Shown here piece by piece: positions 21,890 to 38,426 of a stretch of DNA of 64,000 nucleotides (the stretch's first letter is position 1; each line of letters begins with the position of its first letter). The translations under genes were made by a program, and so were the position numbers. The DNA lies in NCBI RefSeq assembly GCF_001420995.1, contig NZ_CP012184.1, forward strand, positions 2,092,501 through 2,156,500, given 5' to 3'. The DNA is from Pseudonocardia sp. EC080619-01. Its GTDB lineage: Bacteria > Actinomycetota > Actinomycetes > Mycobacteriales > Pseudonocardiaceae. The notes under the pieces are model-generated. The model did no database searches and was not told the origin of the DNA. It was given only the letters and a program-made list of their open reading frames with translations.

Positions 21890-22867
21890 TCATGCGCGTG
21901 CCGGGGGCCAGGCGCCCGAGGACGCCGGTCCGCCGCGCTCGGGCGGGGGTTCGTTCTCGTCGACGACGCGGGCGCCGCCTACCGGTCCGTGGGCGACCCG
22001 GACGGTGCGGCACACGCCCATCCCGGCCAGCTCCGTGGCGACCTCGACGGCCGCGTCGGCGTCGGCGCAGAGGAACGCGCACGTCGGCCCGGACCCGGAC
22101 ACCAGCCCGGCCAGCGCGCCCGCATTGACCCCGGCGCGCAACGTGCGGCGCAGGTCGGGCGCCATGGAGACCGCGGCGGCCTGCAGGTCGTTGCCCAGGT
22201 TCAGCGCGAGCCGGTTGGGGTCCCCCGAGGAGAGCGCCTCGAGCACCGGCTCGACCGGACGCTCGGTGATCTCGCCGTCGCCGCGCAGCCGGTCGAGCTC
22301 GCCGAACACCGCCGGTGTGGACAGCCCACCCCGCGCCAGCGCGATCACCCAGTGCAGGCGGTGCCGGGCCAGCACCGGGATGATCCGCTCACCGCGCCCG
22401 GTACCGAGCGCGGTGCCGCCGTGCAGCCCGAACGCGACGTCCGATCCCAGCTCGGCGGCCAGCGTGGACAGCTCGTCGCGGCCCAGCTCCATCCGCCACA
22501 GCGCGGCGAGCGCGACGAGCGCCCCGGCCGCGTCGGCGGAGCCGCCCGCCATCCCGCCGGCGACCGGGATGCCCTTGCGCAGGGTGACCCGCACGTCCGG
22601 GTCGCGGTCGGCCTTCTGTGCCAGCAGCTCGACGGCCCGCCAGGCCAGGTTGGTGGCGTCCAGCGGGACCTCGGCGACGCCGTCGCCGTGCACCTCCAGT
22701 GCCGGCTCGTCGGCGGGCTGCACCGACACCTCGTCGAAGAGACTCACCGCGTGGAAGACGGTCACGAGGTCGTGGAAGCCGTCCGGCCGCACCCCGCCGA
22801 CGGCGAGGTGCAGGTTGATCTTCGCGGGGACCCGGACGGTGACCGGTCGCGGAACGGCGGACAGCAC
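21890..22867 (-). CDS. ispE: 4-(cytidine 5'-diphospho)-2-C-methyl-D-erythritol kinase
   Basis: 325 residues of the GHMP kinase superfamily: [15 protein letters not shown] at the N-terminus, the ATP loop [18 protein letters not shown], and [11 protein letters not shown] near the C-terminus. It phosphorylates CDP-ME in the MEP isoprenoid pathway. The GTG at 22867 has TAGGGT (22879-22874) 6 nt upstream, so the gene has its own leaderless promoter. In most actinobacteria ispE follows ksgA directly; here it is cut off from it by an exporter gene and a repeat island. Confidence 0.95.
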
Positions 22868-22873
22868 CGTTCA

Positions 22874-22879
22874 ACCCTA
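22874..22879 (-). promoter_or_regulatory. -10 box for leaderless ispE transcript
   Basis: TAGGGT on the minus strand, 6 nt before the GTG start. It provides local transcription now that ispE is separated from ksgA. Confidence 0.45.
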
Positions 22880-22960
22880 CGGGCCGGGACCCGGACCTGC
22901 CGTCGCCCGTCCCGATGCGTGGGCGGGCTCACCAGCGCTCCGGGCGCCACGCCGGGGTGC

Positions 22961-23069
22961 CCGGCTCGGCTCGGCTCGGCTCGGCCCGGCGCGGCGCGGC
23001 GCGGCGCGGCGCGGCGCGGCGCGGCGCGGCGCGGCGCGGCGCGGCGCGGCGCGGCGCGGCGCGGCGCGG
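22961..23069. repeat. Pentanucleotide tandem repeat (NCGGC)n
   Basis: A continuous 5-bp array: CCGGC, four TCGGC, CCGGC, then 15 perfect GCGGC units (22991-23065) and a partial one. It lies about 95 bp upstream of ispE. The array is non-coding; open frames through it on both strands are artefacts of the repeat. Confidence 0.95.
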
Positions 23070-23131
23070 AGGCATAACGGGGCGGCACCACCGCCGCGGC
23101 GACGCCGGCTGTCCGTCCGGCCGGGGAGGGG

Positions 23132-23178
23132 TTCCGGAAAGTCGCTGCGTGAGGAAGCGATTCGGCAGAAGAGGAAGG
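23132..23178. repeat. Hairpin repeat element, copy A
   Basis: Core GTCGCT (23141-23146)-N9-AGCGAT (23156-23161), preceded by TTCCGGAAA and followed by TCGGCAGAAG. It shares sequence and fixed spacing with copies at 23315, 35694 and 35807. Confidence 0.8.
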
Positions 23179-23209
23179 TCACCGCGACGGCCGCACCATG
23201 TCCGCGCGT

Positions 23210-23249
23210 CCCGGCATCCCGGCATCCCGACGTCCCGACGTTCCGGCGT
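23210..23249. repeat. Five-unit degenerate 8-bp tandem array
   Basis: Units are CCCGGCAT twice, CCCGACGT twice and TCCGGCGT. They have the same period and consensus as the 14-unit array at 23412, and occupy the same position relative to hairpin copy A as that array does to copy B. Confidence 0.75.
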
Positions 23250-23314
23250 CCGGTATCCGGTGCCGGAGTCCCGACGCCGCGTCGGCTCCGTCTGTCCGCC
23301 GGGTCGGAGTGGGG

Positions 23315-23354
23315 TTCCGGAAATCGCTGCCTGGGGAAGCGATCCGGCAGAAGG
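23315..23354. repeat. Hairpin repeat element, copy B
   Basis: Core ATCGCT (23323-23328)-N9-AGCGAT (23338-23343), flanked by TTCCGGAA and CCGGCAGAAG. The similarity to copy A extends over about 110 bp (23107-23226 versus 23289-23403), indicating a duplicated cassette. Confidence 0.8.
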
Positions 23355-23411
23355 CACGGTGGCCGCGACGGCCGCACCGGTCTTCGCGTCCCGGCATGCG
23401 GCCGTCCGCAT

Positions 23412-23528
23412 CCCGGTGTCCCGGTGTCCCGGTGTCCCGGTGTCCCGGTGTCCCGGTGTCCCGGTGTCCCGGTGTCCCGGTGTCCCGGTGTCCCGGTGTC
23501 CCGGTGTCCCGGTGTCCCGGTGTCCCGG
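23412..23528. repeat. Octanucleotide tandem repeat (CCCGGTGT)14
   Basis: Fourteen perfect 8-bp units (23412-23523) and a partial unit, ending 6 nt before the MFS stop codon. The units are contiguous with no spacers, so this is a minisatellite and not a CRISPR array. It is likely variable in copy number. Confidence 0.95.
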
Positions 23529-23533
23529 CCGGA

Positions 23534-25075
23534 TCATCCGCCCGGCGACTCCCTCGGTGCGGACGACGCAGCGGCCGCGGGCTCGCCGGCGCCGGGGCGC
23601 TGCGCGAGCAGGTGGCGGGGCGTCGCGAAGCAGGCGACGGCGACCAGCCCGACCACGAGGACGCCTGCGGGGAGCAGCACCGACTGCGCCATCGCCACGG
23701 CGAACGGCTCCCGCACCGCCTCGGGGAGCGGACCGCCGGCGACGGCCGTCTCCGGCGAGCCCCCGGACCCGCCGCCGGCCCCGGGGACCAGGGCGGCGAT
23801 GCGGGCCTCCATCAGCACCGCGATCCCGGCGCTGCCCAGCACCGCGCCGACCTGCCGGGTGGCGTTGTAGATCCCCGATCCCGACCCGGCCTGGTCCATC
23901 GGCAGGTTCCGGGTGGCGCTCGTCGAGATCGGCGCCCACACGCACGAGTTGGAGATGCCGAGCAGCGCGATCGGCAGCACCAGCTGCCAGACCGGGGTGT
24001 CCGGGCCCATCGCCAGCGCGAGCCACAGCAGCCCGGCGACGAACGTCGCCATCCCGAACCCGCCGATCAACCGCGGATGGATCCGGTCGGTGAGCCGCCC
24101 GGTCCACGGCGCGAGCCCGCCGGACAGGATCGCCAGCGGCGCCAGCAGCAGCGCCGCCTCGGTGGGGGTGAACCCGCGCACGCTCTGCGCGTAGATCATC
24201 AGCGGGAAGCCCTGCGCGGTGATCGCGAAGCCGACGGTGCAGATCGCGATGTTGGCCAGCGAGAAGTTGCGGTCCCGGAACAGCTGGAGCGCGACGAGCG
24301 GCTCGGACCGCGTCCGGGACTGCCACCACACGAACACGACGAGGATCCCGGCGCCGACGAGGATGGACGTCCACACCAGCGGGCTCCAGTCGTACTTCTG
24401 GCCCTCCTGGATCCCGAACACCAGCAGGAACATCCCGGCCGCGGACAGCACGACGCCGACCAGGTCGAACCGTCGCCGGGAGGTCGGCAGCGACGGCACC
24501 AGCCGCCACACGGCGACGAACGCGACGACGCCGAACGGCACGTTGACGAAGAAGATCCACTCCCAGCCGAGACCGCCGACCAGCAGCCCGCCGAGGATCG
24601 GCCCGGCCAGCGTCGCGACCCCGGCGACGGCACCCCACAGGCTCATCGCCCGGCCACGCTGGGCCGCCGGGAACGTGCGGGTGATCACCGACATCGTCTG
24701 CGGGGTCATCAGCGAGGCGCCGAGGCCCTGCGCGACCCGCGCGACGATCAGGCCGCCGACGGTCGTCGTGAGCCCGCACCACAGCGACGCGAGCGTGAAC
24801 ACGGCGAGCCCGGCCAGGTACACGTGCTTCGGGCCGAACCGGTCCCCGAGCCGGCCGGTGATCAGGAGCGGGACGGCGTAGGCCAGCAGGTAGGCGCTGG
24901 TCACCCAGATCACCGAGTTGACGTCCGCGCCGAACGCGGCCAGGAGTGCCGGCGTCGCGACGGTCACGATCGTCGCGTCGACCAGGATCATGAAGAACCC
25001 GATGACCAGGGCCCACAACGCCGGCCACGGGCTCGTCCCGTCCGTGCCGACCACTCGCCCGCTCGCCCGTGTCAC
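23534..25075 (-). CDS. MFS transporter, DHA2 family (EmrB/QacA type)
   Basis: 513 residues with about 14 predicted membrane segments and a long C-terminal loop. Motif A (GRLGDRFGPKHVY), the DHA2 segment near the N-terminus (LVDATIVTVATPALLAAFG) and the motif C-like GPILGGLLVGGLGWEW are clear. It should be a proton-coupled drug or metabolite exporter. It starts with GTG at 25075, about 60 nt after the ksgA stop. It separates ksgA from ispE and abuts the repeat island, which suggests a later insertion. Confidence 0.9.
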   Translation of the reverse strand: MTRASGRVVGTDGTSPWPALWALVIGFFMILVDATIVTVATPALLAAFGADVNSVIWVTSAYLLAYAVPLLITGRLGDRFGPKHVYLAGLAVFTLASLWCGLTTTVGGLIVARVAQGLGASLMTPQTMSVITRTFPAAQRGRAMSLWGAVAGVATLAGPILGGLLVGGLGWEWIFFVNVPFGVVAFVAVWRLVPSLPTSRRRFDLVGVVLSAAGMFLLVFGIQEGQKYDWSPLVWTSILVGAGILVVFVWWQSRTRSEPLVALQLFRDRNFSLANIAICTVGFAITAQGFPLMIYAQSVRGFTPTEAALLLAPLAILSGGLAPWTGRLTDRIHPRLIGGFGMATFVAGLLWLALAMGPDTPVWQLVLPIALLGISNSCVWAPISTSATRNLPMDQAGSGSGIYNATRQVGAVLGSAGIAVLMEARIAALVPGAGGGSGGSPETAVAGGPLPEAVREPFAVAMAQSVLLPAGVLVVGLVAVACFATPRHLLAQRPGAGEPAAAASSAPRESPGG

Positions 25076-25135
25076 CCCGACATGATGCGGCCCGCCGCGT
25101 CCGTCGCTCCGCTCACCCCCACGTACCGGTGCGGG

Positions 25136-26014
25136 TCAGCGGTGCGCGGCGACGGCGGCGAAGTCGGTCACCGACAGGCGCTCGGCGCGCGTGGTCGGGT
25201 CGATCCCGGCCGCCCGCAACGCGGTCTCGGCGGCCGCCGGGGATCCCGCCCAGCCCGCGAGTGCCCCGCGCAGGGCCTTGCGGCGCTGGGCGAACGCAGC
25301 CTCGATCACCGCGAAGGTCGCGTCCCGGTCCGCACCGGACGGCGGGTCGTGCCGGGTGAAGGCGAGCAGTCCGGAGTCGACACCGGGAACCGGCCAGAAC
25401 ACCGCCCGCGGGACGGGACCGGCGCGGCGGGCGTCGGCGTACCAGGCGAGCTTGGCGCTGGGGGCGCCGTACTGCCGGGAGCCGGGGCCGGCGGCGAGCC
25501 GGTCGGCGACCTCGGCCTGCACCATGACCAGCCCGCGCTCGAGGCTCGGCAGCTCGGCGAGCAGGTGCAGGATCACCGGGACCGCGACGTTGTACGGCAG
25601 GTTCGCCACGATCGCGGTGGGATCCGCAGGCCGGGCCCCGCCTGCGTCGGCGGCGAGCTCGGCGGCGGAGACCCGCATCGCGTCGGCGCCGGTGACGGTG
25701 AGCCGGTCGGCGAGACCGGGTGCCCGCTCGGCGACCGTCTCCGGGAGCAGCTCCGCGAGCACCGGGTCGATCTCGATCACGTGCACGCGGGCGGCCACCG
25801 GGAGCAGTGCCAGGGTCAGCGACCCGAGCCCGGGCCCGACCTCGAGCACGACGTCGTCGGCGCCCACACCGGCCGACTTCACGATCCGGCGGACGGTGTT
25901 CGCGTCGTGCACGAAGTTCTGGCCGAGCTTCTTGGTGGGTCGCAGCCCGAGCCGGTCGGCCAGCACCCGGACGTCGGCGGGGCCCAGCAGCCGGGCGGTC
26001 CCGTTCTCGCTCAC
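25136..26014 (-). CDS. rsmA: 16S rRNA (adenine1518-N6/adenine1519-N6)-dimethyltransferase
   Basis: 292 residues. It has [11 protein letters not shown], the SAM motif [25 protein letters not shown] and the catalytic NLPYNV motif, then the C-terminal [13 protein letters not shown] and [12 protein letters not shown] blocks. KsgA/RsmA dimethylates two adenosines near the 3' end of 16S rRNA. It is downstream of the rpf gene on the minus strand, the usual actinobacterial order. The start is the GTG at 26014. Confidence 0.95.
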
Positions 26015-26057
26015 GCGCCCATTCTCGCCGGGACGGCGGACGGGCGGCCCGCCGGGA

Positions 26058-26966
26058 TCAGCTCAGGCCGAGCTTGGACGAGCAGGACGGCCAGGCGCTG
26101 TAGCCGCCGCGGTCGTCCTTCACCTTCTCGGCGACCGAGATCTGCTCCTCGCGGCTGGCCTTGTCCGCGGTCGGGGCGTACTGGTCGCCGCCGTAGGACT
26201 GCCAGGTCTGCTTGTCGAACTGCAGGCCGCCCTGGTAGCCGTTGCCCGTGTTGGTCGACCAGTCGCCGCCGGACTCGCACTTGGCGAGCTTGTCCCAGGT
26301 GGCGCCGTTCGAGACGGCGGGCGCGGCGGACTTCGCCTTCTCGACGACCTCCTCGGCCTTCTTCTTGGTGCCGACCTTCACGACCCGCGGCGTGGCCGGG
26401 GTGTCCTGGCCGGCACCGATCCGGTCGCGGGCGACCTCGCGGCCCTTGTCGTAGGTGACCCGCCAGATCACGCTGCGCTCGCCCTCACGGCCCGGGTCGA
26501 CGACGGTGCGGGTGCCCTCCTCCAGGGAGGGGTCCTGCACCTCCTGCTCGGGGACCGGGAGCTTCTGCGACTCGACGATCTGGGCGTCGACGATGTCCGC
26601 CCCGGACGTCGGCGCCGCGACCGGCGCGAACGACGTCGACGGGGAAGCCTGGCGCTCCAGCGACATCGACGCGGTGCCGAGGTCGGTCGCGTTCGAGGCG
26701 AGGTCGGCGCGCAGCGACTGTGTCGCGTCGCCCGGCTCCGGCGCCATCACGGCGACGGCCAGGCCCGCGGTCGGCACCGAGAACAGCGCGGCCGCGGCGA
26801 CGGTGCGGACGCCCGTCTTCGACGGTCCGCCGCGGTGCCTGCCCTCGTAGCTGACGTACCCGGCCTCGTCGCCGGAGAGCCCGGCGGGTGCGGCGGCACC
26901 ACCGGACAGGGGAAGGGGACGCGTGACGTCGTCGTCGGGGGTCGGAACAACGCTGCGCTCGAACAT
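26058..26966 (-). CDS. Resuscitation-promoting factor, RpfB-like, with G5 domain
   Basis: 302 residues from the ATG at 26966 (GGGAAG upstream). A membrane anchor ([18 protein letters not shown]) lies near residue 60. A G5 domain covers about residues 150-205 ([19 protein letters not shown]). The C-terminal Rpf lysozyme-like domain has [20 protein letters not shown] with the catalytic Glu, followed by [17 protein letters not shown]. It cleaves peptidoglycan outside the cell and promotes regrowth from dormancy. The repeated DUF348 domains of M. tuberculosis RpfB are not evident, so it is a shorter form. Confidence 0.9.
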
Positions 26967-27231
26967 GACTTCCCGTGGGCTCGGCTGTCCGGGACAAGGC
27001 CATGACCTGCGGAGACGACGACCGGCGCGGTACCGGGGAGCGGAACCTCTGCTGGGGAGCGGACCGGTCGTCGTCCCGCGGGTCGGGGGAGCGACCCCGT
27101 CCCGGCGGGTACGGCCGACGACGTTAGCGGACCGTGACCGGACCGAGGCCATCGGACACGGGACCGGCGACGAGCGGCCCGTGATCGACGCCGAGTGACG
27201 AGGACCCCGACCTCCGCTGCGTTGGGCGGTG
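26967..27231 (-). promoter_or_regulatory. Structured leader of the rpf gene
   Basis: A TAACGT -10-like box (27126-27121, minus strand) would give a leader of about 145 nt. The leader holds a perfect 12-bp inverted repeat (27014-27025 with 27064-27075). Its loop carries the direct repeat GGGGAGCGGA at 27035-27044 and 27054-27063. Rpf genes in actinobacteria often have regulatory leaders. I do not see the conserved core of the c-di-AMP (ydaO) riboswitch, so I call this an unassigned structured leader. Confidence 0.45.
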
Positions 27232-28086
27232 TTATTCGGTTGCGTCCAGCCGAAAGATCCGTTCGGCGTTGCGTCGTGCCGACTCGGCGACCCGGGCTTC
27301 CGTCTCCCCGCGGGTCGCCGCGATCCCGCGGACGGTCCACGGCAGGACGTACGGCTCGTTCGCCCGCCCGCGGTGCGGGTGCGGGGTGAGGAACGGGGCG
27401 TCGGTCTCCACCAGGTACCGGTCGTCGGGCACGAGCGCCGCCGCGGCGCGCAGCTCGTCGTTGCGCTTGAAGGTGACGGGCCCCGCGAACGACAGGACGT
27501 ACCCGGCGTCGACGCACTCGCGGGCCATCGCCGCGTCGCCGGAGAAGCAGTGGAAGACGACGTCGTCGGGGGCGCCCTCCTCGCGGAGGATCCGCAGGAC
27601 GTCGTCGTGCGCGTCCCGGTCGTGGATCATCAGCGGCTTGCCGGTGCGCTTGGCGAGGCCGATGTGCCAGCGGAAGGCGTCCTGCTGGGCCGACGGCGGC
27701 GCGTGGTCCCAGTAGTAGTCCAGGCCGGTCTCGCCGATGGCGACCACCCGGTCGTCGGCGGCGAGCCGCTCGATCTCGGCGAGATCGGCGCCGGACACCG
27801 ACGCCGTACGGGTGGGGTGCAGCGCCACCGCCGCCCACACCCGGTCGTCGGCGTGCGCCGCCCCGACCGCCCAGCGGGCCGCGACGAGGTCGTCGGCGAT
27901 CGTCACCACCCCGGCGACACCGGTCGCCGCCGCCCGGTCCAGGGCGGCGACGACGTCGGCGTCGGTCTCGCAGCCGCACGCGTCGAGGTGCGTGTGCGAG
28001 TCGATCGTCGGTGCCGCGAGCGGCTCCGGCGGATCCGGGCGGGGACGGCGGCCGTGCGGGCCCTGGGTCTCCGACGGCGCGCTCAC
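27232..28086 (-). CDS. TatD family metal-dependent hydrolase (DNase)
   Basis: 284 residues from the GTG at 28086, which overlaps the metG stop. The metal ligands are present: DSHTHLD at the N-terminus, [25 protein letters not shown] and ETDAPFLTP. TatD proteins are metal-dependent 3'-5' nucleases or related hydrolases. The metG-tatD-rpf-ksgA order is standard for actinobacteria. Confidence 0.93.
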
Positions 28087-29873
28087 TGCTGGATCGGTGC
28101 CCACTCCGGACCGGTCTCCCCCAGCTCCGGCGGGAGCTTGGCGAAGATCGGCGTCGGCTTGGCCAGCGGACGGCCGACCTCGACCGGGGTGGACCCCCAG
28201 TGCGCCTGCTCGGCCGCGTAGTCCCCGGTCAGGACCGGGTACGACGGCCCGTCGCCGAGGTCGTCGACCTCCTGGCGCTCCGGCTGCGCGGCCCACACCC
28301 CGGCACCGCCCAGCGCCTCGTGCACCTTCTGGGCCGAGTGCGGCAGGAACGGGGTGAGCAGGGTGTTGGCGTCCTGCACGACCTGCAGTGCCGTGTGCAG
28401 GATCGTGTCCCGGCGCTCCGGGTCGTCCTTGCGCTTCCACGGCTCCTGGTCGGACAGGTACCGGTTCGCCGCGGTGACGACCCGCATCGCCTCGCCGGCG
28501 GCCTGCTTGAACCGGTTCCGGGCGAGCAGCCCGCCGACCGTGTCGAACCCGGCCCGCGAGACCGCGAGCAGCTCGGCGTCGGCCTGCTGCGGGGCCGTCG
28601 GCGCCGGGATCGCACCGACGTTCTTGTGCGCCATCGAGACCGACCGGTTGACGAGGTTGCCCCACTCGTTGGCCAGCTCGAAGTTCACCCGGCGGACGAA
28701 CTCGTCCCAGGTGAAGTCGACGTCCTGGTTCTCCGGACCGGCGACGGCGATGTGGTACCGCAGCGCGTCCGGCCCGAACTCGCGGAGGAAGTCGCCGACG
28801 TAGATCACGGTGCCGCGCGAGGTGGAGAACTTGGAGCCGAGCATCGTCAGGTACTCCGAGGACACGACCTCGCTGGGCAGGTCGAGCTTCCCGTAGCGCC
28901 CCGGGTCGCCCCCGCGGTCGCCCTGCCCGTTGTGTCCGAGCAGGATCGCCGGCCACATCACCGAGTGGAAGGTGATGTTGTCCTTGCCCATGAAGTAGAA
29001 GGCCTGGGCCTCGGGGTCGGTCCACCACTGCTTCCAGGCGTCCGGGTCGGGACCGCGGCGGGCCCACTCGACCGACGCGGACAGGTAGCCGATGACGGCG
29101 TCGAACCAGACGTAGATCTTCTTCATCGGGTTGTCCGACCAGCCGTCCAGCGGCACCGGGACGCCCCACTCCAGGTCCCGCGTGATCGCCCGCGGCTTCA
29201 GGTTCTCGGCCAGGTTCGCCGAGAACTTCAGCACGTTCGGCCGCCAGTCGGTGCGGGTCGACAGCCACGACCCGAGCGCCTCGGAGAACGCGGGCAGGTC
29301 GAGGAAGAAGTGCTCCGTCTCGACGAACGACGGGGTCTCCCCGTTGATCTTCGAGCGGGGGTTCTCGAGGTCGGCCGGGTCGAGCTGGTTGCCGCAGTTG
29401 TCGCACTGGTCGCCGCGGGCGCCGTCGTAGCCGCAGATCGGGCAGGTGCCCTCGATGTAGCGGTCCGGCAGCGTGCGCCCGGTCGACGGGCTGATCGCGG
29501 CGAGCTGGGTCCGCGGCACGATGTACCCGTTCTTGTACAGCGCCGTGAACATGTGCTGCACGACCTCGTAGTGGTTCGAGGTCGTGGTGCGGGTGAACAG
29601 GTCGTAGCTCAGGCCGAGGCCCTGCAGGTCCCGGGTGATGACGTCGTTGTACTTGTCGGCCAGCTGCCGCGGGGTGAGCCCCTCGGCGTCGGCCTGCACC
29701 TGGATCGGTGTGCCGTGCTCGTCGGTGCCGGAGACCATCAGCACCCGGTCCCCCGCCATCCGCCGGTACCGGGCGAAGACGTCGGAGGGCACACCGAACC
29801 CGGACACGTGGCCGATGTGCCGGGGGCCGTTGGCGTAGGGCCACGCCACGGCGGTCAGCACGGCTTTGCTCAT
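28083..29873 (-). CDS. metG: Methionyl-tRNA synthetase
   Basis: 596 residues. Class I motifs are HIGH (in PRHIGHVSG) and KFSTS (the KMSKS equivalent, in GSKFSTSRG). A zinc knuckle [18 protein letters not shown] sits in the connective domain. The C-terminal anticodon-binding helices follow; there is no extra EMAP-like domain. TACGCT (29886-29881) lies 7 nt before the ATG and GGAGGGC lies between, so either a leaderless or very short leader is expected. Confidence 0.96.
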
Positions 29874-29985
29874 GCCCTCCAGCGTATTCACCGGGGCCAC
29901 CGCCTTCCGCGGCGGCACGGCCCGGCGGTGTGTCCGACCGTGTGTGTCCGCTGTGGAAACGGCCCCGCACCGGACCCGCGGTGCC

Positions 29986-30558
29986 ATGATGACGGTCATG
30001 GACCGTGCCGAACAGGACCGCGAGGGGCTCCTCGACGCGGCCCTCCAGCAGTGGGTGGACGGCGGCTGGCCCGCCGTCGACCCGGTCGCCGCGGCCGCGC
30101 GGGCGGGGCTGCCCGGGACGGCCGCCGCGGAGTTCCCGACCGGCGCCGACCTGGTGTGCGCGGTGTTCGACGCGATCGTGGACGAGCGCGCCGCGGCCAT
30201 GCTGCAGGCGGCGGCGTCCGCCCCGACCCCCGTCGACCGGTTCCGGGCCGTGATGGCGGCGATGCTCGACGACGTCGCCCGCGACCCGCGACGGGTCGTC
30301 GTGCTGGCCGACGCGTTCGGGTGCCCGCCGCTGGTCGCCCGGCGGCGCAGCGCGAACCGCGGGTTCGGCGAGCTGATGGCCGCGCAGCCGATCGACACCC
30401 GGGTCGGGCCCGACGACCTCCGCCTGGCCGGGCACTTCGTGATGGGCGGGATCGCCGAGATCGTCCTCGCCTGGCTCGACCCGGCCAGCCCGGTGGACCG
30501 GGAGCGGGCCGTCGACCACGGGGCGCGGCTGATGGAGGCGTGCGCCACCGCGCACTGA
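29986..30558 (+). CDS. TetR-like transcriptional regulator
   Basis: About 190 residues; in-frame ATGs at 29986, 29989 and 29998 are all possible starts. The N-terminus fits a degenerate TetR helix-turn-helix ([36 protein letters not shown]). The rest is all-helical, as in TetR ligand domains ([18 protein letters not shown]). It is divergent from metG and convergent with the GH15 gene. The target and ligand are unknown. Confidence 0.7.
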
Positions 30559-30579
30559 GCGCTCCCGCCCTTCCGGCCG

Positions 30580-32430
30580 TCAGCCCAGTGCGCGGTCGAG
30601 GTTGATCGCGGAGCTGATCAGCGACAGGTGGGTGAAGGCCTGCGGGAAGTTGCCCAGCTGCTCCCCGGTCAGTCCGATCTCCTCGGCGTAGAGCCCCAGG
30701 TGGTTGCCGTAGGAGAACATCTTCTCCAGCGCGATCCGGGCGTGCTCGCGCCGTCCGGCGCGGGTCATCGCCTCGACGTTCCAGAACGAGCACATCGAGA
30801 ACGTGCCCTCCTCCCCCTCGAGACCGTCCGGGGAGTCCTCGACGTCGTAGCGGAACACCAGGGTGTCGACGACGAGGGTGTCGTTGATCGCGTCCAGGGT
30901 CGCGGCGAACCTCGGCTCGGTCGGGGCACAGAACTTGACCATCGGCATGAGCAGCACCGAGGCGTCCAGCGTGGTGGCGCCGTAGCGCTGGACGAACGAG
31001 CCGCGCGGGCCGACGTCCGGGTCCCAGCCGCGGTCCATGATCTGGTGGTAGATCTCGTCCCGGGTCGTGGTCCACGCCCCGACGTCGCCGGGCAGCCCGC
31101 GCCGCCGCGCCATCCGGATCATCCGCTCGACCGCGACCCAGCACATGAGCCGGGAGAACACGTGGTCCTGGCGGCCGGCACGGGTCTCCCAGATGCCCTC
31201 GTCGGGGGCGTCCCAGTGCCCGCGCAGCCACTCGAGGATCGCGCAGAGGTTCGTCCAGTCCTCGTGCCCGACGCCCCGGCCGTGCTTGTCGTAGAGGTAG
31301 ACCGAGTCGATGATCTCGCCGTAGATGTCGAGCTGGAGCTGCCCGGCGGCGCCGTTGCCGCACAGCACCGGGCGGGACCCGCGGTAGCCCTCCAGGTGGT
31401 CGAGCTCGATCTCGGCCGGAACGTCGTCGCCGTCGATCGTGTACATCACGCGGAGCGGTCCCTGGGCGCCGTCCTCGGGCTCCACGAACCGGTCGGTGAG
31501 CCAGTCGATGAACGCCCCCGCCTCCTCGGTGAACCCGAGCCTCAGCAGGGCGTAGAGGGTGAAGGCCGCGTCGCGCATCCAGACGTAGCGGTAGTCCCAG
31601 TTCCGCTCCCCGCCGAGCTGCTCGGGCAACGCCATCGTCGGTGACGCGATCACGGCGCCGGTCGGTTCGTGGGTGAGCATCTTGAGGGTGAGCGCGGAGC
31701 GGTGCACCCGCTCCCGCCACCGCCCCGTGTACGACGACCGCTTCAGCCAGTCCTTCCAGAACGCGACGGTGCCCTCGAACAGGTCGTCGGCGCCGTCGTC
31801 GCAGGGGTCGGGTCCGTCGCCGTCGACCTCCAGGACGAAGACCTCGGTACGGCCCTCCCGGGTGTCGAACTCGGCCCGTGCGGCGTGGTCGACGACCGAC
31901 AGCTCGACCGTCGAGGTCAGGTCCAGCACGATCCCGCTGCCGGTGAACCGGATCCCGGCGCCGCCCGTCACCACCTCCGGCACCTCGCGGGCGTAGTCCG
32001 GGCGCGGGACGACGTCGACGACCATCGGCACCGATCCCCGCACCCCGGTCACCCGGCGGACGAGGCGCTGCCGGTGGCCTGCGTCGTGCGGGGCCAGCAG
32101 CACCAGGAAGTCCTGCACCTCGACGATGCCGTCCGCGGTGAGGAAGCGGGTGATCAGGATGTTCGAGTCGGGGTAGTAGAACTGCTGCTGGGTGGTCAGC
32201 TCGGTGTCGTCGGTCCGCGGCGCGAGGCCCCAGTGCCCGCCGGAGCCGGCGTCGAGCAGCGAGGCGAACACGCTCGGCGCGTCGAACCGGCCGGGACAGA
32301 ACCAGTCGACGGTGCCGTCCGTGCCGACCAGTGCCGCGGTGCGCAGGTCGCCGATGATCCCGTGCTCGGCGATCGGCAGGTAGCCGGTGCCGCCCGGGCC
32401 GCCCGCGCCGCTCACCCGGACACCCGCCAT
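30580..32430 (-). CDS. Glycoside hydrolase family 15 protein (glucoamylase/trehalase-like)
   Basis: 616 residues. The N-terminal beta domain contains [20 protein letters not shown], a hallmark of the bacterial GH15 group. The (alpha/alpha)6 catalytic barrel follows with [36 protein letters not shown] and [11 protein letters not shown]. No signal peptide is present, so it acts in the cytoplasm. Mycobacterial relatives are trehalases. It overlaps the end of zwf by 19 bp, so glucose release and glucose-6-phosphate oxidation may be co-regulated. Confidence 0.88.
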
Positions 32431-33833
32431 CCGCGCGGGCCCGGGAGGTCCAGCGCGTCCTGCGGGCCCCAGGAGCCGCGCGGGTACTCCTGCACCGGAG
32501 GCGGGTCGGCGAGCACCGGGTCACAGAGCTCCCACAACCGCTCCACCTCCTCGGTCGTGGTGAACAGCGTGCGGTCGCCCTTCATCACGTCGAGCAGCAG
32601 CCGTTCGTAGGCCTCCAGCGAGACATCGTCCGGGAAGGAGCCGGCGAGGTCCAGGCACATCCGGCCGCGGCCGACCCGCAGCTCGGGACCGGGGACCTTC
32701 GCGCGGACGTCGAGCTCCACGCTCGGCTCGTCGGCCAGCTCCAGGACGAGCTCGGTCGGCGGGCCGTCCGACGCGTCGCCCGTGAAGGAGCCGCCCGGGA
32801 ACATCGTCAGGGCGGGCTCGTCGAAGCCGATCGTCACGGTGCGGCGGGTCGCGCCCATCGCCTTGCCGGTGCGCAGCAGGAACGGGACGCCGAACCAGCG
32901 CCAGTCGTCGACGTGCACCTCCAGCGCGACGAACGTCTCGACCCGGGAGTCGCCGGCCACGCCGTCCTCGTCGCGGTAGCCGGTGTACTGGCCGAACACC
33001 ACGCGGGACGGGTCCAGCGGCCGGATCGAGCGGAAGACCTTCGCCTTCTCGTCGTGCAGGGCGTCCGGTGAGATCTCGTACGGCGGTTCCAGCGCGACGA
33101 AGCCGAGGATCTGGAACAGGTGCGTGGAGATCATGTCCCGGAACGTGCCGGTGGACTCCATGAACGACGCCCGCCCCTCGATCCCGATCTCCTCCGGGAC
33201 GTCGATCTGCACGTAGCGGATGTTCTGCCGGTTCCAGACCGGTTCGAACAGGCCGTTGGCGAAGCGGAGGGCGAGGATGTTCTGCACCGACTCCTTGCCG
33301 AGGAAGTGGTCGATCCGGAACACGTCGCGCTCGTCGTAGACCTGCTCCAGGCCGGCGTGCAGCTCGCGGGCCGAGGCCAGGTCGGTGCCGAAGGGCTTCT
33401 CCAGCACCAGCCGGGACCGCTCGGCGATCCCGGTCCGGCCGAGCATCGCGACCATCGGGGTCATCGCCGCGGGCGGGACCGACAGGTAGACCAGCCGCCG
33501 GACGTCGGCGTCCCCCGGCCCGCGCAGGTCGTCCTCGGCCCGGCGGACGGCGTCGGCCAGGTCGGAGCCGTCGTCGGCATCGTCGGCGTCGGAGACGACG
33601 AAGTTCAGCCGGGGTGCGAGGTCCTCCCAGCCGGTGGTGTCGCCGAGTGCGTCCCGGATCCGGTCGCGGAACTCGTCGTCGGTGCCGGGTGAGTGCCGCC
33701 CGGAGCCGATCACGCGGAAGTCCTCGGGGAGCAGGCCCGCGTTCTGCAGGTGCAGCAGCCCCGGGAAGAGCTTGCGCCGCGCGAGGTCGCCGGTGGCGCC
33801 GAAGAGCACGATGACGTGCGGGGGCAGAGCCAT
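32412..33833 (-). CDS. zwf: Glucose-6-phosphate dehydrogenase
   Basis: 473 residues from the ATG at 33833. The NADP site is [17 protein letters not shown], the catalytic segment is RIDHFLGKE, and [18 protein letters not shown] and RTGKAM complete the family pattern. It is the first step of the oxidative pentose phosphate pathway. It is outside the usual tkt-tal-zwf-opcA cluster of actinobacteria, so it may be a second isozyme. It is paired with the GH15 gene and divergent from the antiporter genes. Confidence 0.94.
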
Positions 33834-33844
33834 GACGGGTCGTA

Positions 33845-33860
33845 CCCCCGTGAACGGGGG
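33845..33860. promoter_or_regulatory. 16-bp palindrome in the zwf/antiporter divergent region
   Basis: CCCCCGT-GA-ACGGGGG is perfect and lies 12 bp upstream of the zwf start, within the 77-bp region shared with the antiporter operon. It may be an operator. Confidence 0.4.
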
Positions 33861-33897
33861 TCGAACCGGCCCGCTTCGCCACACCGTGTCCGCGGCG

Positions 33898-33903
33898 TAC
33901 CGT
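33898..33903 (+). promoter_or_regulatory. -10 box of the leaderless antiporter operon
   Basis: TACCGT ends 7 nt before the GTG start at 33911. Confidence 0.45.
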
Positions 33904-33910
33904 TGCACGG

Positions 33911-34393
33911 GTGAACGTCGATGTCACTCCGCTGCCCGGGATCGGGGTACGCAAGGAGATCGAGCTGCGCAACGGGCGCAGGGTCGGGGTCATCACGCAC
34001 CGCGACGGGAAGATCGACCTGATCCTCTCCCGCGCGGACGACCCGGACGCCTGCGTCGCCGAGCTGCCGCTGACCACCGAGGAGGCCGGTGCGCTGGCGA
34101 ACCTGCTCGGCGCCCCGCAGCTGGTCAACCAGCTCAACGACGAGCACGCGGACCTGCCGGGCATCACCACCCGCAAGCTGCCGATCAAGCACAACAGCCC
34201 GTACGACGCGCGCCCGCTGGGTGACACCGCGCTGCGCACCCGCACCCAGGTGTCGGTGGTCGCGGTGATGCGCGCCGGACAGGTCCTCCCCTCCCCGACC
34301 CCGGACTTCGTGCTCGCCGCCGGCGACATCGTGATCGCGGTCGGGACCACGGAGAAGCTCGAACAGGCCGCCGACGTCCTCGCGCGCGGCTGA
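33911..34393 (+). CDS. Cation:proton antiporter regulatory subunit (TrkA-C domain, KhtT/AmhM-like)
   Basis: 160 residues. An N-terminal domain ([20 protein letters not shown]) is followed by a C-terminal RCK_C/TrkA-C domain at about 70-158 ([22 protein letters not shown]). Such soluble proteins gate the partner CPA2 antiporter; in relatives the RCK_C domain binds c-di-AMP or nucleotides. It lies 6 nt before the antiporter gene. The first codon is GTG, with a -10 box directly upstream, so the message is probably leaderless. Confidence 0.88.
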
Positions 34394-34399
34394 GCCGCC

Positions 34400-35587
34400 T
34401 TGGACCACACCGCACTCGAACTCCTCGAGCTCGGCGCCGTCTTCTTCGGCCTCGGCCTGCTCGGCAGGCTCGCGCAGAAGATCGGTCTGTCGCCCATCCC
34501 GCTGTACCTGGTCGGCGGGCTCGCCTTCGGTTCCGGCGGGATCTTCCCGCTGGGGGACATCGGTGACTTCACCTCGCTGGCCGGTGAGGTCGGCGTCGTC
34601 CTGCTGCTGTTGCTGCTCGGGCTGGAGTACTCCGCCGCCGAGCTCGTCACGGGACTGAAGCGGTCCTGGACGGCGGGACTCGTCGACATCGTGCTCAACG
34701 CCGCGCCGGGCGTCGCGGTGGCGCTGATCCTCGGCTGGGGGCCGGTCGGCGCGATGGTGCTCGGCGGCGTCACGTACATCTCGTCGTCCGGGATCGTCGC
34801 GAAGGTGCTGTCCGACCTGGGACGGCTGGGCAACCGGGAGACCCCGGTGATCCTCTCGGTGCTGGTGTTCGAGGACCTGGTGATGGCCCTCTACCTGCCG
34901 ATCCTGACGGCGCTGCTGCTCGGGGTGACGCTGTGGGGCGGGATCAGCGCGGTCACGATCTCGCTGGTCGTCATCGCCGTCGTGCTGGTCGTCGCGCTGC
35001 GCTACGGCCGCTACGTCTCGGCGATCGTCGACTCCGACGACCGCGAGGTCTTCCTCCTCAAGGTCCTCGGCGCGGCGTTGCTCGTGGCCGGGTTCGCCCA
35101 GGCCATGCAGGTCTCGGCGGCCGTCGGGGCGTTCCTGCTCGGGATCGCGATCTCCGGGTCGACCGCGGAGAACGCGACGAAGCTCCTGGAACCGCTGCGC
35201 GACCTGTTCGCCGCCGTGTTCTTCGTGGTGTTCGGCCTGACGACGGACCCGCGGGCGATCCCGCCGGTGCTGGGCTGGGCTCTGGTGCTGGCCGTGTCGA
35301 CCACCGCCACCAAGTACGCGACGGGCTGGTGGGCCGCCCGCCGGGCCCGGATCGGCCGGATGGGCCGCGCCCGCGCCGGGGCCGCGCTGGTCGCGCGCGG
35401 CGAGTTCTCGATCGTCATCGCCGGCCTGGCCGTCGGCTACGCCGCGGTCCCCGCCGAGCTCTCGGCCCTGGCGACGGCCTACGTGCTGATCATGGCCGTG
35501 CTGGGGCCGATCGCGGCGCGCTACGTCGAGCCGGTCGTGCGCGCGATCCCGGTCCGGGCCCGCGCGACGGAGAAGGCGAACGCCTGA
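34400..35587 (+). CDS. CPA2-family cation:proton antiporter (KhtU-like)
   Basis: 395 residues and about 12 membrane helices. Family segments include LVGGLAFGSGGIFPLG, LLLLLLGLEYSAAEL and VGAFLLGIAISGS. It starts with TTG, 6 nt after the regulatory subunit stop. The pair should exchange K+ or Na+ for H+ and help control pH, turgor or methylglyoxal stress. It has no RCK domain of its own, which matches the separate subunit. Confidence 0.88.
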   Translation: MDHTALELLELGAVFFGLGLLGRLAQKIGLSPIPLYLVGGLAFGSGGIFPLGDIGDFTSLAGEVGVVLLLLLLGLEYSAAELVTGLKRSWTAGLVDIVLNAAPGVAVALILGWGPVGAMVLGGVTYISSSGIVAKVLSDLGRLGNRETPVILSVLVFEDLVMALYLPILTALLLGVTLWGGISAVTISLVVIAVVLVVALRYGRYVSAIVDSDDREVFLLKVLGAALLVAGFAQAMQVSAAVGAFLLGIAISGSTAENATKLLEPLRDLFAAVFFVVFGLTTDPRAIPPVLGWALVLAVSTTATKYATGWWAARRARIGRMGRARAGAALVARGEFSIVIAGLAVGYAAVPAELSALATAYVLIMAVLGPIAARYVEPVVRAIPVRARATEKANA

Positions 35588-35594
35588 GCGGACG

Positions 35595-35624
35595 GCGCAG
35601 CGGGTTCCGGCGCAGCGGATTCCG
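35595..35624. repeat. 15-bp tandem duplication
   Basis: GCGCAGCGGGTTCCG is followed at once by GCGCAGCGGATTCCG. The AGCGGATTCCG end resembles the 3' arm of the nearby hairpin elements. Confidence 0.6.
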
Positions 35625-35693
35625 GCGCTCGCTCCCGGCGCCCGTCTTCCGGGCCGCTGGTGGGTCCGCCACCGCGAAGGCCAGGGACACCTC

Positions 35694-35735
35694 TTCCAGG
35701 AAATCGCTGCTTCAGGCAGCGATTCGACAGGCAGG
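35694..35735. repeat. Hairpin repeat element, copy C
   Basis: Core ATCGCT (35703-35708)-N9-AGCGAT (35718-35723), extended to AATCGCTGC/GCAGCGATT. Flanks TTCCAGGA and TCGACAGGCAG match copies A and B. Most of the 327-bp gap between the antiporter and rsmI consists of such elements. Confidence 0.8.
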
Positions 35736-35806
35736 TACGGCCCCGGGTCGGCGAGCGCACATCGCAGCCGTCCTTCGACGGCGCTCGCACGCCTGCACCG
35801 TCCACG

Positions 35807-35860
35807 ACATCGCTTCCTGAGGCAGCGATTCCACAGAGAGCGATTCCGCAGAAGGGGGCA
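35807..35860. repeat. Hairpin repeat element, copy D, with an extra half-site
   Basis: Core ATCGCT (35809-35814)-N9-AGCGAT (35824-35829), followed by a second 3' arm AGCGATTCCGCAGAAGG at 35839. The extra arm is nearly identical to the end of copies A and B. Confidence 0.75.
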
Positions 35861-35914
35861 CGGCCGTGCGGCACGACGACCGCGGCAGCCTCGCCGGGAC
35901 CGGCAGGTGACGGC

Positions 35915-36805
35915 TCAGCCGCGCGCCGCGAGCGTCGCGTTGTACAGCTCCCGCTTCGGCACCCCGGCGGCCTCGGCGACCGCGGCGACGGCGTCCTTCA
36001 GCCGCTCGCCGTCGTCGGTGCGCTCCTGGACCGCGTCGACCAGCGACTCGACCGGCGGGGCCTCGCGGGCCTCCGCGCCGGCCAGCACGATCGTCACCTC
36101 ACCCAGGACGTCGCCCTCCGCCGCCCACGCGGCGAGCGAGGCGAGCGTCCCGCGCTTCACCTGCTCGTAGGTCTTGGTCAGCTCCCGGCACACCGCGGCG
36201 CGGCGGTCGGGCCCCAGCACGGCGACGGCGTCGGCGAGGGTGTCGGCGGTCCGGCGCGGCGACTCGAAGAAGACCGCGGCGCGGCGCTCGTCGCGCAGGG
36301 TCTCCAGCCAGCGCCGCCGGTCACCGGAGCGCCGCGGGGGAAAGCCGTCGAAGCAGAACCGCTCGCAGGGCAGCCCGGACAGGACCAGCGCCGTCGTCAC
36401 CGCCGACGGGCCGGGGACGCAGGTGACGGGAAGGTCCTCGGCGGCGGCCGCGGCGACCAGCCGGTAGCCGGGATCGGACACCGCGGGCATCCCGGCGTCG
36501 GACACCACCAGCACGGTCGCGCCGTCCCGGACCGCGGCGAGCAGGCCGGGGAGCCGCTCGGTCTCGACGGCGTCGTAGTGGCTGACGATCCGGCCGACGT
36601 AGGTGACCTCCAGTGACGCGGCGAGCGTCCGGAAGCGGCGGGTGTCCTCGGCGGCGATGACGTCGGCGGTGCCGATCAGCTCACGCAGCCGCGGCGAGGC
36701 GTCCCGCGGGTCGCCGAGCGGGGTCGCGGCCAGGACGAGGCGTCCGGGCGTCGTCGCTGGGGAGGCGACGGACGCCCCGGGACCGGAGGCAGCGGCGGGC
36801 GACAC
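35915..36805 (-). CDS. rsmI: 16S rRNA (cytidine1402-2'-O)-methyltransferase
   Basis: 296 residues from the GTG at 36805, selected because TAGGCT stands 7 nt upstream. It shows the tetrapyrrole-methylase fold: LVLAATPLGDPRDASPRL, AAEDTRRFRTL, VVSDAGMPAVSDPGYRL, VPGPSAVTTALVLSG and FFESPRR. RsmI methylates the ribose of C1402 in the ribosomal P site. It is divergent from the mannosyltransferase gene, as in M. tuberculosis Rv1003/Rv1002c. Confidence 0.94.
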   Translation of the reverse strand: MSPAAASGPGASVASPATTPGRLVLAATPLGDPRDASPRLRELIGTADVIAAEDTRRFRTLAASLEVTYVGRIVSHYDAVETERLPGLLAAVRDGATVLVVSDAGMPAVSDPGYRLVAAAAAEDLPVTCVPGPSAVTTALVLSGLPCERFCFDGFPPRRSGDRRRWLETLRDERRAAVFFESPRRTADTLADAVAVLGPDRRAAVCRELTKTYEQVKRGTLASLAAWAAEGDVLGEVTIVLAGAEAREAPPVESLVDAVQERTDDGERLKDAVAAVAEAAGVPKRELYNATLAARG

Positions 36806-36812
36806 GGGGACC

Positions 36813-36822
36813 AGCCTACGAT
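36813..36822. promoter_or_regulatory. Bidirectional promoter with overlapping -10 boxes
   Basis: The decamer AGCCTACGAT holds TACGAT on the plus strand (36817-36822) and TAGGCT on the minus strand (36818-36813). The boxes share two base pairs. Each lies 7-8 nt from a start codon (rsmI GTG at 36805, mannosyltransferase ATG at 36831), so both transcripts are leaderless and compete for the same DNA. Confidence 0.55.
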
Positions 36823-36830
36823 CGACGGCG

Positions 36831-38426
36831 ATGCCCACCTCGACCGCCGACCCCGGGAGCAGGGTCGCCGGAGCGGGTCCGGAGCCCGGTCTGACGCCGC
36901 ACGGCACTCCCCCGCCGCTGCGGCGGGCCGATCCCGGTCCGGGAGCCCGGCTCGGTGTCCCGCCTCCGGCCGATCGGCTGTACGGGTGGCTGGTGACGGC
37001 GGGCGTCGTGCTGATCGCGGCTCTGCTCCGGTTCTACGACCTGGGCGAGCCGACCGACCGTGGCACCCCGGTGTTCGACGAGAAGCACTACGTCCCGCAG
37101 GCCTGGGAGATGGTCCGGAACGGCGGCGTCGAGAACAACCCGGGCTACGAGAAGATCGTCCACCCGCCGCTGGCCAAGCAGCTGATCGCGCTCGGGCAGC
37201 TGGTCTTCGGCTACGACGGCGTCGGCTGGCGGGTCTCGGCCGCGCTGGCCGGGGTGCTGACCGTCCTGCTGATCGTCCGGATCGGGCGGCGGCTGACCCG
37301 GTCGACGGCGCTCGGCGGCCTCGCCGGCCTGCTGCTCGTCGCCGACGGCCTGTCCCACGTGCAGTCCCGGATGGGGATGCTCGACGCGTTCTCCGCGGTC
37401 TTCGTGGTCGCCGCGTTCGCGGCGCTGCTCTGCGACCGGGACGACGTCCGCGCCCGGATGGCCCGGGTGATCGCCGAGGGACGTGTCGGTGATCATCCGT
37501 TCGGCCCGCGCTGGGGGGTGCGCTGGTGGCGGCTGGTCGCCGGCGTCTGCCTCGGGCTCGCCTGCGCGGTGAAGTGGAACGGCTCGTACTACGTGGCCGC
37601 GTTCGGCGTGCTGTGCGTGCTCTGGGACGTCTCGCTGCGGCGGCGGGCCGGGGTGGCGCGCCCGTGGGCCGGTACGGCGGCCCGCGACCTCGCGCCCGCG
37701 CTCTGGGCCCTCGCGCTGGTCCCGATCCTCACCTACGTCGGTTCCTGGTGGGCCTGGTTCGGCAGCGAGACCGGGATCGACCGGCACCAGGTCGGACGCG
37801 AGATCGGCACCGGCGGCATGTGGTCCTGGATGCCGGACGCGGTGCGGTCGCTCTGGTACTACCACGGTCAGGCGCTGGCGTTCCACGAGAACCTGACGAC
37901 CAGCTCCGCGGGACGGCACCCGTGGGAGTCGAAGCCGTGGACGTGGCCGATGGGGCTGCGCCCGATGCTCTACCGCTACTCCGACTCGGCGACCGGCTGC
38001 GGGGAGTCCGAGTGCGTGTCGGCGGTGATGCTGATCGGGACACCCGCCCTGTGGTGGCCGGCGATCCCCGTGCTGCTGTGGGGCCTGTGGCGGGCCGTGA
38101 CGCGGGCCGACTGGCGCTGGATCGCGGTGCTCGTCGGCTACGGCGCCGGGTTCCTGCCCTGGTTCCTGAACCTCGACCGGCAGATGTACTTCTTCTACAT
38201 GATGCCGGTGGTGCCGTTCCTGGTGCTGGGGGTCGTGCTGGTGATGGGCCGGATGCTGGGGCACGCCGGCGAGTCCGAACGACGACGGCGGACCGGCCGG
38301 CTCGTCGTCGCCGGGTGGCTCGCGCTGATCCTGGTGAACTTCGTGTGGCTGTGGCCGATCCTGGTCGGCGACCCGATCACCCAGGCGCACTGGCAGGCCG
38401 AGCTCTGGCTGCCGTCGTGGCGCTAG
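36831..38426 (+). CDS. Dolichyl/polyprenyl-phosphate-mannose protein mannosyltransferase (GT39, Pmt)
   Basis: 531 residues with about 10-11 membrane helices. The catalytic DE motif is in PVFDEKHYVPQAWEM (first large extracellular loop), followed by HPPLAKQLIALG and SRMGMLDAF. It transfers mannose from polyprenyl-phosphate-mannose to Ser/Thr of proteins exported by Sec. The N-terminal 45 residues are a Pro-rich cytoplasmic extension. It overlaps the FAD oxidoreductase gene by 10 bp. Confidence 0.92.
   Translation: MPTSTADPGSRVAGAGPEPGLTPHGTPPPLRRADPGPGARLGVPPPADRLYGWLVTAGVVLIAALLRFYDLGEPTDRGTPVFDEKHYVPQAWEMVRNGGVENNPGYEKIVHPPLAKQLIALGQLVFGYDGVGWRVSAALAGVLTVLLIVRIGRRLTRSTALGGLAGLLLVADGLSHVQSRMGMLDAFSAVFVVAAFAALLCDRDDVRARMARVIAEGRVGDHPFGPRWGVRWWRLVAGVCLGLACAVKWNGSYYVAAFGVLCVLWDVSLRRRAGVARPWAGTAARDLAPALWALALVPILTYVGSWWAWFGSETGIDRHQVGREIGTGGMWSWMPDAVRSLWYYHGQALAFHENLTTSSAGRHPWESKPWTWPMGLRPMLYRYSDSATGCGESECVSAVMLIGTPALWWPAIPVLLWGLWRAVTRADWRWIAVLVGYGAGFLPWFLNLDRQMYFFYMMPVVPFLVLGVVLVMGRMLGHAGESERRRRTGRLVVAGWLALILVNFVWLWPILVGDPITQAHWQAELWLPSWR

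Follow-up and report, generated by a model that had tools for sequence, protein, structure and literature searches.

Four copies of a near-palindromic element lie in the window, the stretch of 64,000 nucleotides of the Pseudonocardia sp. EC080619-01 genome that was analysed here, as two pairs that each occupy one intergenic region (Table 1; gene calls were made with an in-house script). Copies 1 and 2 are 182 bp apart centre to centre, and copies 3 and 4 are separated by 106 bp. A sequence-only reading of the window had described four cores with exactly 9 nt between their arms, all of which were recovered where it had placed them. The conserved flanks that it also reported are indeed shared by 38 of the 40 exact matches in the genome, but its GGAAA and TCSRCAGAAG sides are not separate signatures; they form the two outer arms of a single 41-bp near-palindrome. 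Since the flanks belong to the palindrome, they lose the value as a sign of mobility that had been attached to them, and no homologous flank unit beyond the palindrome was seen between different loci among the matches listed: when masked flanks were compared for a larger mobile unit, only low-complexity and tandem repeats were alike. With at most one mismatch, the window holds 7 pattern matches where shuffles predict 1.11, and the exact ones among them are the four named copies. Copies 1 and 2 have longer common flanks (49 nt at 82%), a likeness that looks like local duplication. An Rfam scan of the window at gathering scores gave two tRNAs and no other structured RNA.

Table 1. Copies of the element in the window, the intergenic regions that hold them and the adjacent genes (positions in the window).
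Feature	Position	Strand	Remarks
41-bp near-palindrome, copy 1	23131..23171	.	core 23141-23161, GTCGCTGCGTGAGGAAGCGAT; profile 48.7 bits
41-bp near-palindrome, copy 2	23313..23353	.	core 23323-23343; profile 45.6 bits
41-bp near-palindrome, copy 3	35693..35733	.	core 35703-35723; profile 48.4 bits
41-bp near-palindrome, copy 4	35799..35839	.	core 35809-35829; profile 49.0 bits
Extra partial half-site AGCGATTCCGCAGAAGG, adjoining copy 4	35839..35855	.	weak profile match centred at 35834, 22.3 bits
Intergenic region with copies 1 and 2	22868..23533	.	
Convergent intergenic region with copies 3 and 4	35588..35914	.	327 bp
Neighbour gene, GHMP kinase family	21890..22867	-	context only
Neighbour gene, MFS transporter	23534..25054	-	context only
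Neighbour gene, sodium/hydrogen exchanger family	34400..35587	+	context only
Neighbour gene, tetrapyrrole methylase family with RsmI C-terminal domain	35915..36838	-	context only

The proposal of a dispersed, mostly intergenic and enriched element was borne out by a genome-wide check, in which RTCGCT-N9-AGCGAY had 40 exact matches in the 7.2 Mb genome against 2 for the same pattern written backwards. Two of the exact matches (C1:4924329 and C2:817139) lack the shared flanks and look like chance matches. Relaxed searches raised the count to 54 copies, distributed over 35 loci that all lie on the 6.15 Mb chromosome, and with a profile built from the 38 flank-sharing copies, 54 sites score above 26 bits. 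A scan of 426 kb with this profile, about four fifths of which had been fetched around known copies, found two further places at 22-26 bits and none at 10-22, and the reversed profile gave nothing above 10 bits in the same DNA. The half-site reads CTTCYGNGGA-ATCGCTKCCY, with CTTCYG as the outer arm on both sides in the position tables of 38 and of 54 copies. Sites stand singly or in twos and threes, and 15 of the 19 spacings between them measure 84-130 bp. Helical phasing of these 19 spacings is suggestive only, as several periods were tried (Rayleigh p 0.0108 at 10.0 bp, 0.12 at 10.4, 0.074 at 10.5, 0.032 at 10.6, 0.0092 at 11, 0.004 at 21 and 0.0044 at 21.2). Elsewhere, the core pattern occurred in 114 stretches of genome_contigs and 5 of viral_contigs, which by eye do not share the outer arms and look like chance, and similarity searches of plasmids and phages with one 45-nt copy as query gave no match.

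The placement of the element relative to genes is skewed. Element-bearing gaps in this genome comprise 19 convergent, 14 tandem and no divergent ones, and 2 loci fall inside doubtful gene calls, whereas gaps of at least 100 bp in the window and 20 other regions, picked at round coordinates and found to be element-free, comprise 11 convergent, 59 tandem and 59 divergent ones (Fisher p 5.6e-9 for the convergent excess and 6.4e-8 for 0 of 33 divergent). The 28 loci in relatives show the same absence of divergent gaps (12 tandem, 11 convergent, 0 divergent, 4 inside gene calls and 1 open). Six convergent gaps of at least 200 bp are present in the window and the 20 regions, with the element only in the window's one, and in regions that had been fetched around elements it occupies 17 of 20 long convergent gaps, so that the latter figure is biased and neither is a genome-wide rate. 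The median distance from site to gene end is 174 bp (83 distances under 600 bp). Flanking genes belong to unrelated Pfam families (38 of 70 scanned), and on this ground and the lack of divergent gaps an operator of one regulon was rejected. CIRCE, an inverted-repeat operator found upstream of heat-shock genes, likewise has an N9 spacer between its arms, but the arms themselves are different, and the present element occupies convergent or tandem gaps whose genes have nothing in common.

Related genomes carry the element in different spellings, and within the genomes searched it is confined to one clade of Pseudonocardia. At E<=0.01, a model of this genome's sites (R1) matches this genome and, as marginal hits, 2 of the genus's 61 other genomes. 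A model of the sites of G002, G027 and G073 (R2) matches G002, G027, G079, G073 and G062, finds a single place in each of G070 and G014, and has no match in this genome. The sister forms are mostly TCGCTTACC in G002, G027 and G079 and mostly TCGCTCACC in G062; G073 is mixed. Between these dialects TCGCT hardly varies, and the changes fall at positions 7-10. Each of the five relatives with many sites has about 10-20 copies. Other palindromes of G073 (ATCTGCT, GTCCGGTGCC) were set aside as separate repeats.

When loci were compared across relatives, 17 of the 31 loci in relatives proved to be orthologues of loci that carry the element in this genome, 14 on the evidence of both flanks and 3 on that of a single flank, so the places are often retained while the spelling changes coherently. 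The other 14 are uncertain or have no orthologue among this genome's element loci. As a control, a set of 20 regions that lack the element and have a similar combined length (398 kb) matched 1 of the 31. The counterpart of the gap with copies 1 and 2 holds one sister-dialect site in G002 and two in G027. At an orthologous site of G002 and G027 (L332/L338), the 19-bp core is identical and the surrounding DNA has changes and gaps; the core of L327/L340 differs only at the central base, and its surroundings align poorly; in L331/L344, the left site did not align and the right one differs by one base. Four loci are element-free in relatives, which means that sites come and go: the locus of copies 3 and 4, whose counterpart in the 8 relatives measured has 39-173 bp between aligned gene ends, and L084 (7 relatives), L091 (7) and L070 (5), where no core was found and the intergenic distance is -2 to 114 bp versus 300-393 here. 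The genes flanking the counterpart of copies 3 and 4 lie about 2.4 kb apart in G027. L062 was uninformative as an ortholog test, its neighbours being kilobases apart in relatives. In G014, unrelated inverted repeats occupy the same gap as copies 1 and 2, in keeping with a permissive slot.

Selection that maintains a stem should make its arms co-vary; in this genome the two halves vary independently. Watson-Crick pairing at each offset stays near the expectation for independence in the 38 strict copies. The observed pairing of 73.8%, against a shuffle mean of 73.3%, is reached by 158 of 500 shuffles, and in the 54 copies no range of offsets beats half-shuffled sites (p 0.65-0.97). Position 7 is G in 55 and T in 53 of the 108 half-sites, and its mismatch with position 15 affects 35 of the 54 copies. 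The hairpins are no more stable than those made by exchanging halves among copies (z +0.63). Pointing the other way, double changes in the stem number 50 cells, slightly more than the shuffle mean of 43.4, and 50 of 500 shuffles reach 50. All 8 sites of G073 read with both arms are non-Watson-Crick at position 7, one of them T-G. The arms do co-vary in the 23 sites of G002 and G027 (p 0.017 for offsets 10-14 and 0.053 for offsets 10-20), where hairpin energy is better than half-swapped (z -3.58). A rival reading is a transcription terminator or other 3'-end hairpin that would work at the RNA level, bidirectionally, between convergent genes. Such a role would accommodate the inverted symmetry, the location after genes, the mean folding energy in this genome (-17.4 kcal/mol for 41 nt), the better-than-swapped folding in G002 and G027, and a T content of 15% over the 15 nt that follow the inner hairpin versus 10% nearby; nevertheless, we regard it as unlikely, given that TTTT occurs in 0 of 108 flanks (15 nt, either strand), that the median distance to the gene end is so long, that most copies carry the position 7 mismatch in the stem, and that a terminator could do without a single sequence conserved across 35 loci.

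Of the two possibilities raised from the sequence alone, a REP-like palindrome or a dimeric-protein site, the latter fits better because of independent half-site variation here, coherent species spelling and cross-species loci. The former would be a once mobile palindrome spread by a transposase, its copies kept alike by conversion and its species forms being different amplified variants; we consider it doubtful, yet a real rival, because the arms co-vary in two relatives and four loci have element-free counterparts. According to passages of PMC3733652 and PMC2817692, REPs are intergenic, lie mainly in tandem and convergent gaps and are species-specific in sequence, all of which holds for the element, a short palindrome whose copies are often clustered and, at L087, include two that are identical over 41 bp. 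Unlike REPs and BIMEs with their RAYT, however, it is symmetric and shows neither a GTAG/GGAG-type tetranucleotide nor a CGTC (or TGTC/CCTC) tag at the palindrome end in the position tables of 38 and 54 copies. Y1 transposase (PF01797), which REPs flank in RAYT-linked systems and which was the one transposase family searched, had 0 matches at E<=0.001 in this genome (G000), with the control positive in 5 of 14 named genomes. A tail of decayed copies is absent from the 426 kb scanned, and more than half of the relative loci are common to species with changed spelling. Complementary mutations that preserve the palindrome, a further trait of REPs, are not seen in this genome, where the halves are independent, and are seen in G002 and G027. 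A self-recognition mark of the DNA-uptake type, with dialects that differ by species as those of Neisseriaceae do, appears highly improbable: passages of PMC3630211 describe the DUS of related species as dialects of a single motif, with an inverted organisation in intergenic DNA, and the element resembles them in its constant core, coherent species-specific changes and inverted intergenic arrangement, but DUS have thousands of copies, against about 54 here and about 10-20 in five relatives, and each site of the element is itself a 41-bp palindrome. Among the matches listed in searches on Pseudonocardia palindromes, REP/RAYT and actinobacteria, Streptomyces/Mycobacterium short palindromes and Streptomyces convergent-gene palindromes, no prior description was recognised.

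We give an even chance to the reading that the element is the symmetric site of a fast-changing DNA-binding protein of this Pseudonocardia clade, a reading drawn from sequence comparison. The 41 bp would be recognised as double-stranded DNA by a putative dimeric or tetrameric protein, whose specificity would drift between species with the sites following in concert, thereby giving rise to the dialects. Less certain than binding itself are the prediction that the sites mark gene 3' ends for chromosome structuring or transcription insulation and the possibility that neighbouring sites would bind cooperatively. With a somewhat lower probability than the site reading, the whole may be an unrecognised chromosome-marking system, in which a rapidly re-specifying predicted binder is paired with a chromosome-wide set of some 10 to 54 symmetric 41-bp 3'-end sites whose locations are often kept while the set is respelled in concert. 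The chromosome-organising site sets parS, matS and NBS are conserved in sequence and have no known bias to gene 3' ends; the element resembles them in having tens of sites over one chromosome with no tie to a regulon, and differs in its species-dependent spelling, its 3'-end bias and a binder that is so far a prediction. A fast-changing MarR gene beside the shared locus L086 was the sole candidate for the binder. It is kept as no more than a weak lead, since two frames share it in G002, a genome that nevertheless has about 19 sites.

If the element is instead REP-like, it would represent an actinobacterial class that lacks a recognised transposase; actinobacteria are not among the REP host phyla named in passages of PMC3733652, and the word is absent from its main text. 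If the concerted respelling is true, an ant symbiont and its relatives would hold a natural record of how the specificity of a DNA-binding protein changes at tens of sites at once.

The four core positions that the sequence-only reading had proposed in the window were all confirmed, and the pattern search run over the whole genome (G000) returned 40 strict matches versus 2 for the backwards pattern. Alignment of the 38 strict copies with shared flanks gave one near-palindrome of 41 bp (half-site CTTCYGNGGA-ATCGCTKCCY). The flanks are thus conserved as that reading had claimed, but its left and right signatures are the arms of a single symmetric element. With a sequence-only model (R1) applied to the whole genome and a profile applied to fetched stretches, 54 sites above 26 bits were found at 35 loci, all on the chromosomal contig C1 (6.15 Mb), and this search found nothing on contig C2 beyond one marginal 16-bit match. 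A 10-kb part of C2 is a 100% match to a plasmid of Pseudonocardia sp. EC080610-09, whose host is the ant Apterostigma dentigerum, so that G000 probably represents this strain or a close neighbour of it. The profile scan covered 426 kb, roughly four fifths of it fetched around copies. Two additional places scored 22-26 bits and the range of 10-22 bits was empty, and hence this DNA showed no tail of decayed copies; in the R1 genome search, scores were computed for 150 of the 4,951 first-look candidates, so that weak copies elsewhere may be missed.

At E<=0.01, R1 matched G000 and, marginally, 2 of the 61 other Pseudonocardia genomes searched. Sister palindromes were uncovered by sampling of relatives, and a model built from 26 of these (R2) detected, at the same threshold, about 19 sites in G002, 17 in G027, 20 in G079, 11 in G073, 10 in G062, and one each in G070 and G014 (match counts halved for the two strands), with zero in G000 and in the remaining 54 genomes. 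Among 297 genomes of the family, a sample without G079, more than six matches to a general core pattern occurred in five (G000, 35; G002, 14; G073, 10; G062, 10; G027, 9), followed by G275 with 6 versus 10 for its backwards control. The core is spelled in species-specific dialects (see table). In a tree of one gene region, G002, G027 and G079 grouped together (support 1.00), as did G000 and G073 (0.98), and G062 stood weakly beside G014 and G061; as far as this gene shows, dialect follows descent. Relatives also have a second palindrome that is dispersed and has long outer arms (GTCCGGTGCC-N6-GGCACCGGAC), and G073 carries ATCTGCT-N9-AGCAGAT copies, identical even in their flanks, which are probably part of an insertion sequence.

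Core spellings as read from the sites, and positions of other features
Feature	Genome	Spelling or position
Core spelling	G000	TCGCTKCCYSRGGMAGCGA
Core spelling	G002, G027, G079	mostly TCGCTTACCSGGTAAGCGA
Core spelling	G062	TCGCTCACCNGGTGAGCGA in 6/7 listed places
Core spelling	G070	TCGCTCACCNGGTGAGCGA in its single site
Core spelling	G073	position 7 (first of the changing core bases) = G, T or C
Core spelling	G014	TCGCTGACC in its single site
Second palindrome	G073	L271:16123; L282:11992; L285:11175 and 12274
Second palindrome	G002	L311:19287
ATCTGCT-N9-AGCAGAT	G073	L271:14477; L280:2587; L282:2912; L286:494
Tandem arrays	G000	window 22975-23070 and 23411-23530
MarR-type regulator		L086:5364-5909
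60KD_IMP insertase		L077:13385-14293

Placement was compared for a subset of the sites in relatives, 31 distinct loci in all: in G002 and G027 the loci found with the strict pattern, and in the others those met in sampling or the best model hits. Seventeen of them match a G000 element locus at the element itself; both flanks agree in 14 and one flank in 3 (G002, 6/11; G027, 6/7; G079, 2/4; G073, 2/5; G070, 1/1; G062, 0/2; G014, 0/1), and an uncertain match at L283 lies outside this count; by comparison, 1 of the 31 matched any of 20 element-free control regions that together were of about the same size. Between G002 and G027, the orthologues L332 and L338 have an identical core in changed surroundings; the cores of L327 and L340 differ at the central base alone, and the pair L331/L344 has a single-base difference in the right site and no alignment of the left one. 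A fast-changing MarR-type regulator gene (approximately 49-66% amino-acid identity), split between frames in G002, adjoins shared sites and has orthologues in L281, L344 and L331.

Other loci lack the element in relatives. The gaps at L084, L091 and L070 span 300, 393 and 322 bp in G000 and -2 to 114 bp in the 7, 7 and 5 relatives measured, where no core was found. At the 35.7 kb locus of the window, eight relatives have no element and their aligned gene ends are 39-173 bp apart, and in G027 about 2.4 kb separates the two genes; at the 23 kb locus, short gaps are present in several relatives. Copies 1 and 2 there lie beside two tandem arrays of simple repeats, one of CGGCG type and the other with about 15 copies of the 8-bp unit TCCCGGTG, short repeats appeared by self-comparison at element loci L066, L081, L067 and L068, and the G014 gap orthologous to window 22868-23533 (L346) holds a different inverted repeat of CGTGCA...TGCACG type, about three times by eye.

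According to gene calls made with our own codon-score script, the 33 element-bearing gaps of G000 are convergent (19) or tandem (14) and never divergent, and the remaining loci, L090 and L094, were placed inside gene calls that are doubtful. The comparison set (462 kb, comprising 20 element-free regions at round coordinates and the window with its two element gaps) contained gaps of 100 bp or more in convergent (11), tandem (59) and divergent (59) arrangement, against which both the convergent excess (Fisher p 5.6e-9) and the absence of divergent gaps (p 6.4e-8) are evident. Loci of relatives (28 classified) were tandem (12), convergent (11), inside calls (4) or open (1), again with none divergent. 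Sites lie a median of 174 bp from a gene end (83 distances, each <600 bp), and the Pfam families of the flanking genes are unrelated to one another (38 of the 70 listed were scanned, besides two proteins near the contig start). The element at C1:90050 is just upstream of a 60KD_IMP (YidC-type) insertase gene, a neighbour suggesting that the replication origin may be near.

The two halves vary independently in G000. Pairing per offset in the 38 strict copies was close to the independence expectation and the overall pairing was equalled in 158 of 500 shuffles, though double changes filled 50 cells (shuffle mean 43.4), a count reached in 50 of 500 shuffles. Across the 54 copies, pairing exceeded that of half-shuffled sites in no offset range (p 0.65-0.97), every one of the 108 half-sites has G or T at position 7, where 35 of the copies carry a mismatch between the arms, and hairpin energy did not change when halves were swapped between copies (z +0.63). 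Position 7 was likewise not Watson-Crick in 8/8 G073 sites for which both arms were read. What speaks most strongly against a pure protein-site reading is that arms co-vary near the core in G002 and G027 (23 sites; p 0.017 for offsets 10-14 and p 0.053 for offsets 10-20) and that hairpins there are more stable than when halves are swapped (z -3.58); such co-variation could also arise by intrastrand correction of palindromes. Because of this result, together with the clustering of copies, the gain and loss of sites and a placement common to REPs, a REP-like repeat is kept as a serious rival, though a less probable one than the protein site; the genome gave no Y1 transposase match at E<=0.001, and the element has no head tetranucleotide of that class. 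A terminator alone is disfavoured.

The respelling of sites in concert at loci common to several genomes, the conservation of cores, a symmetry in which the halves vary independently and the restriction to a narrow clade fit a putative symmetric site of a protein with drifting specificity, and we infer that the element would function at the 3' ends of genes.
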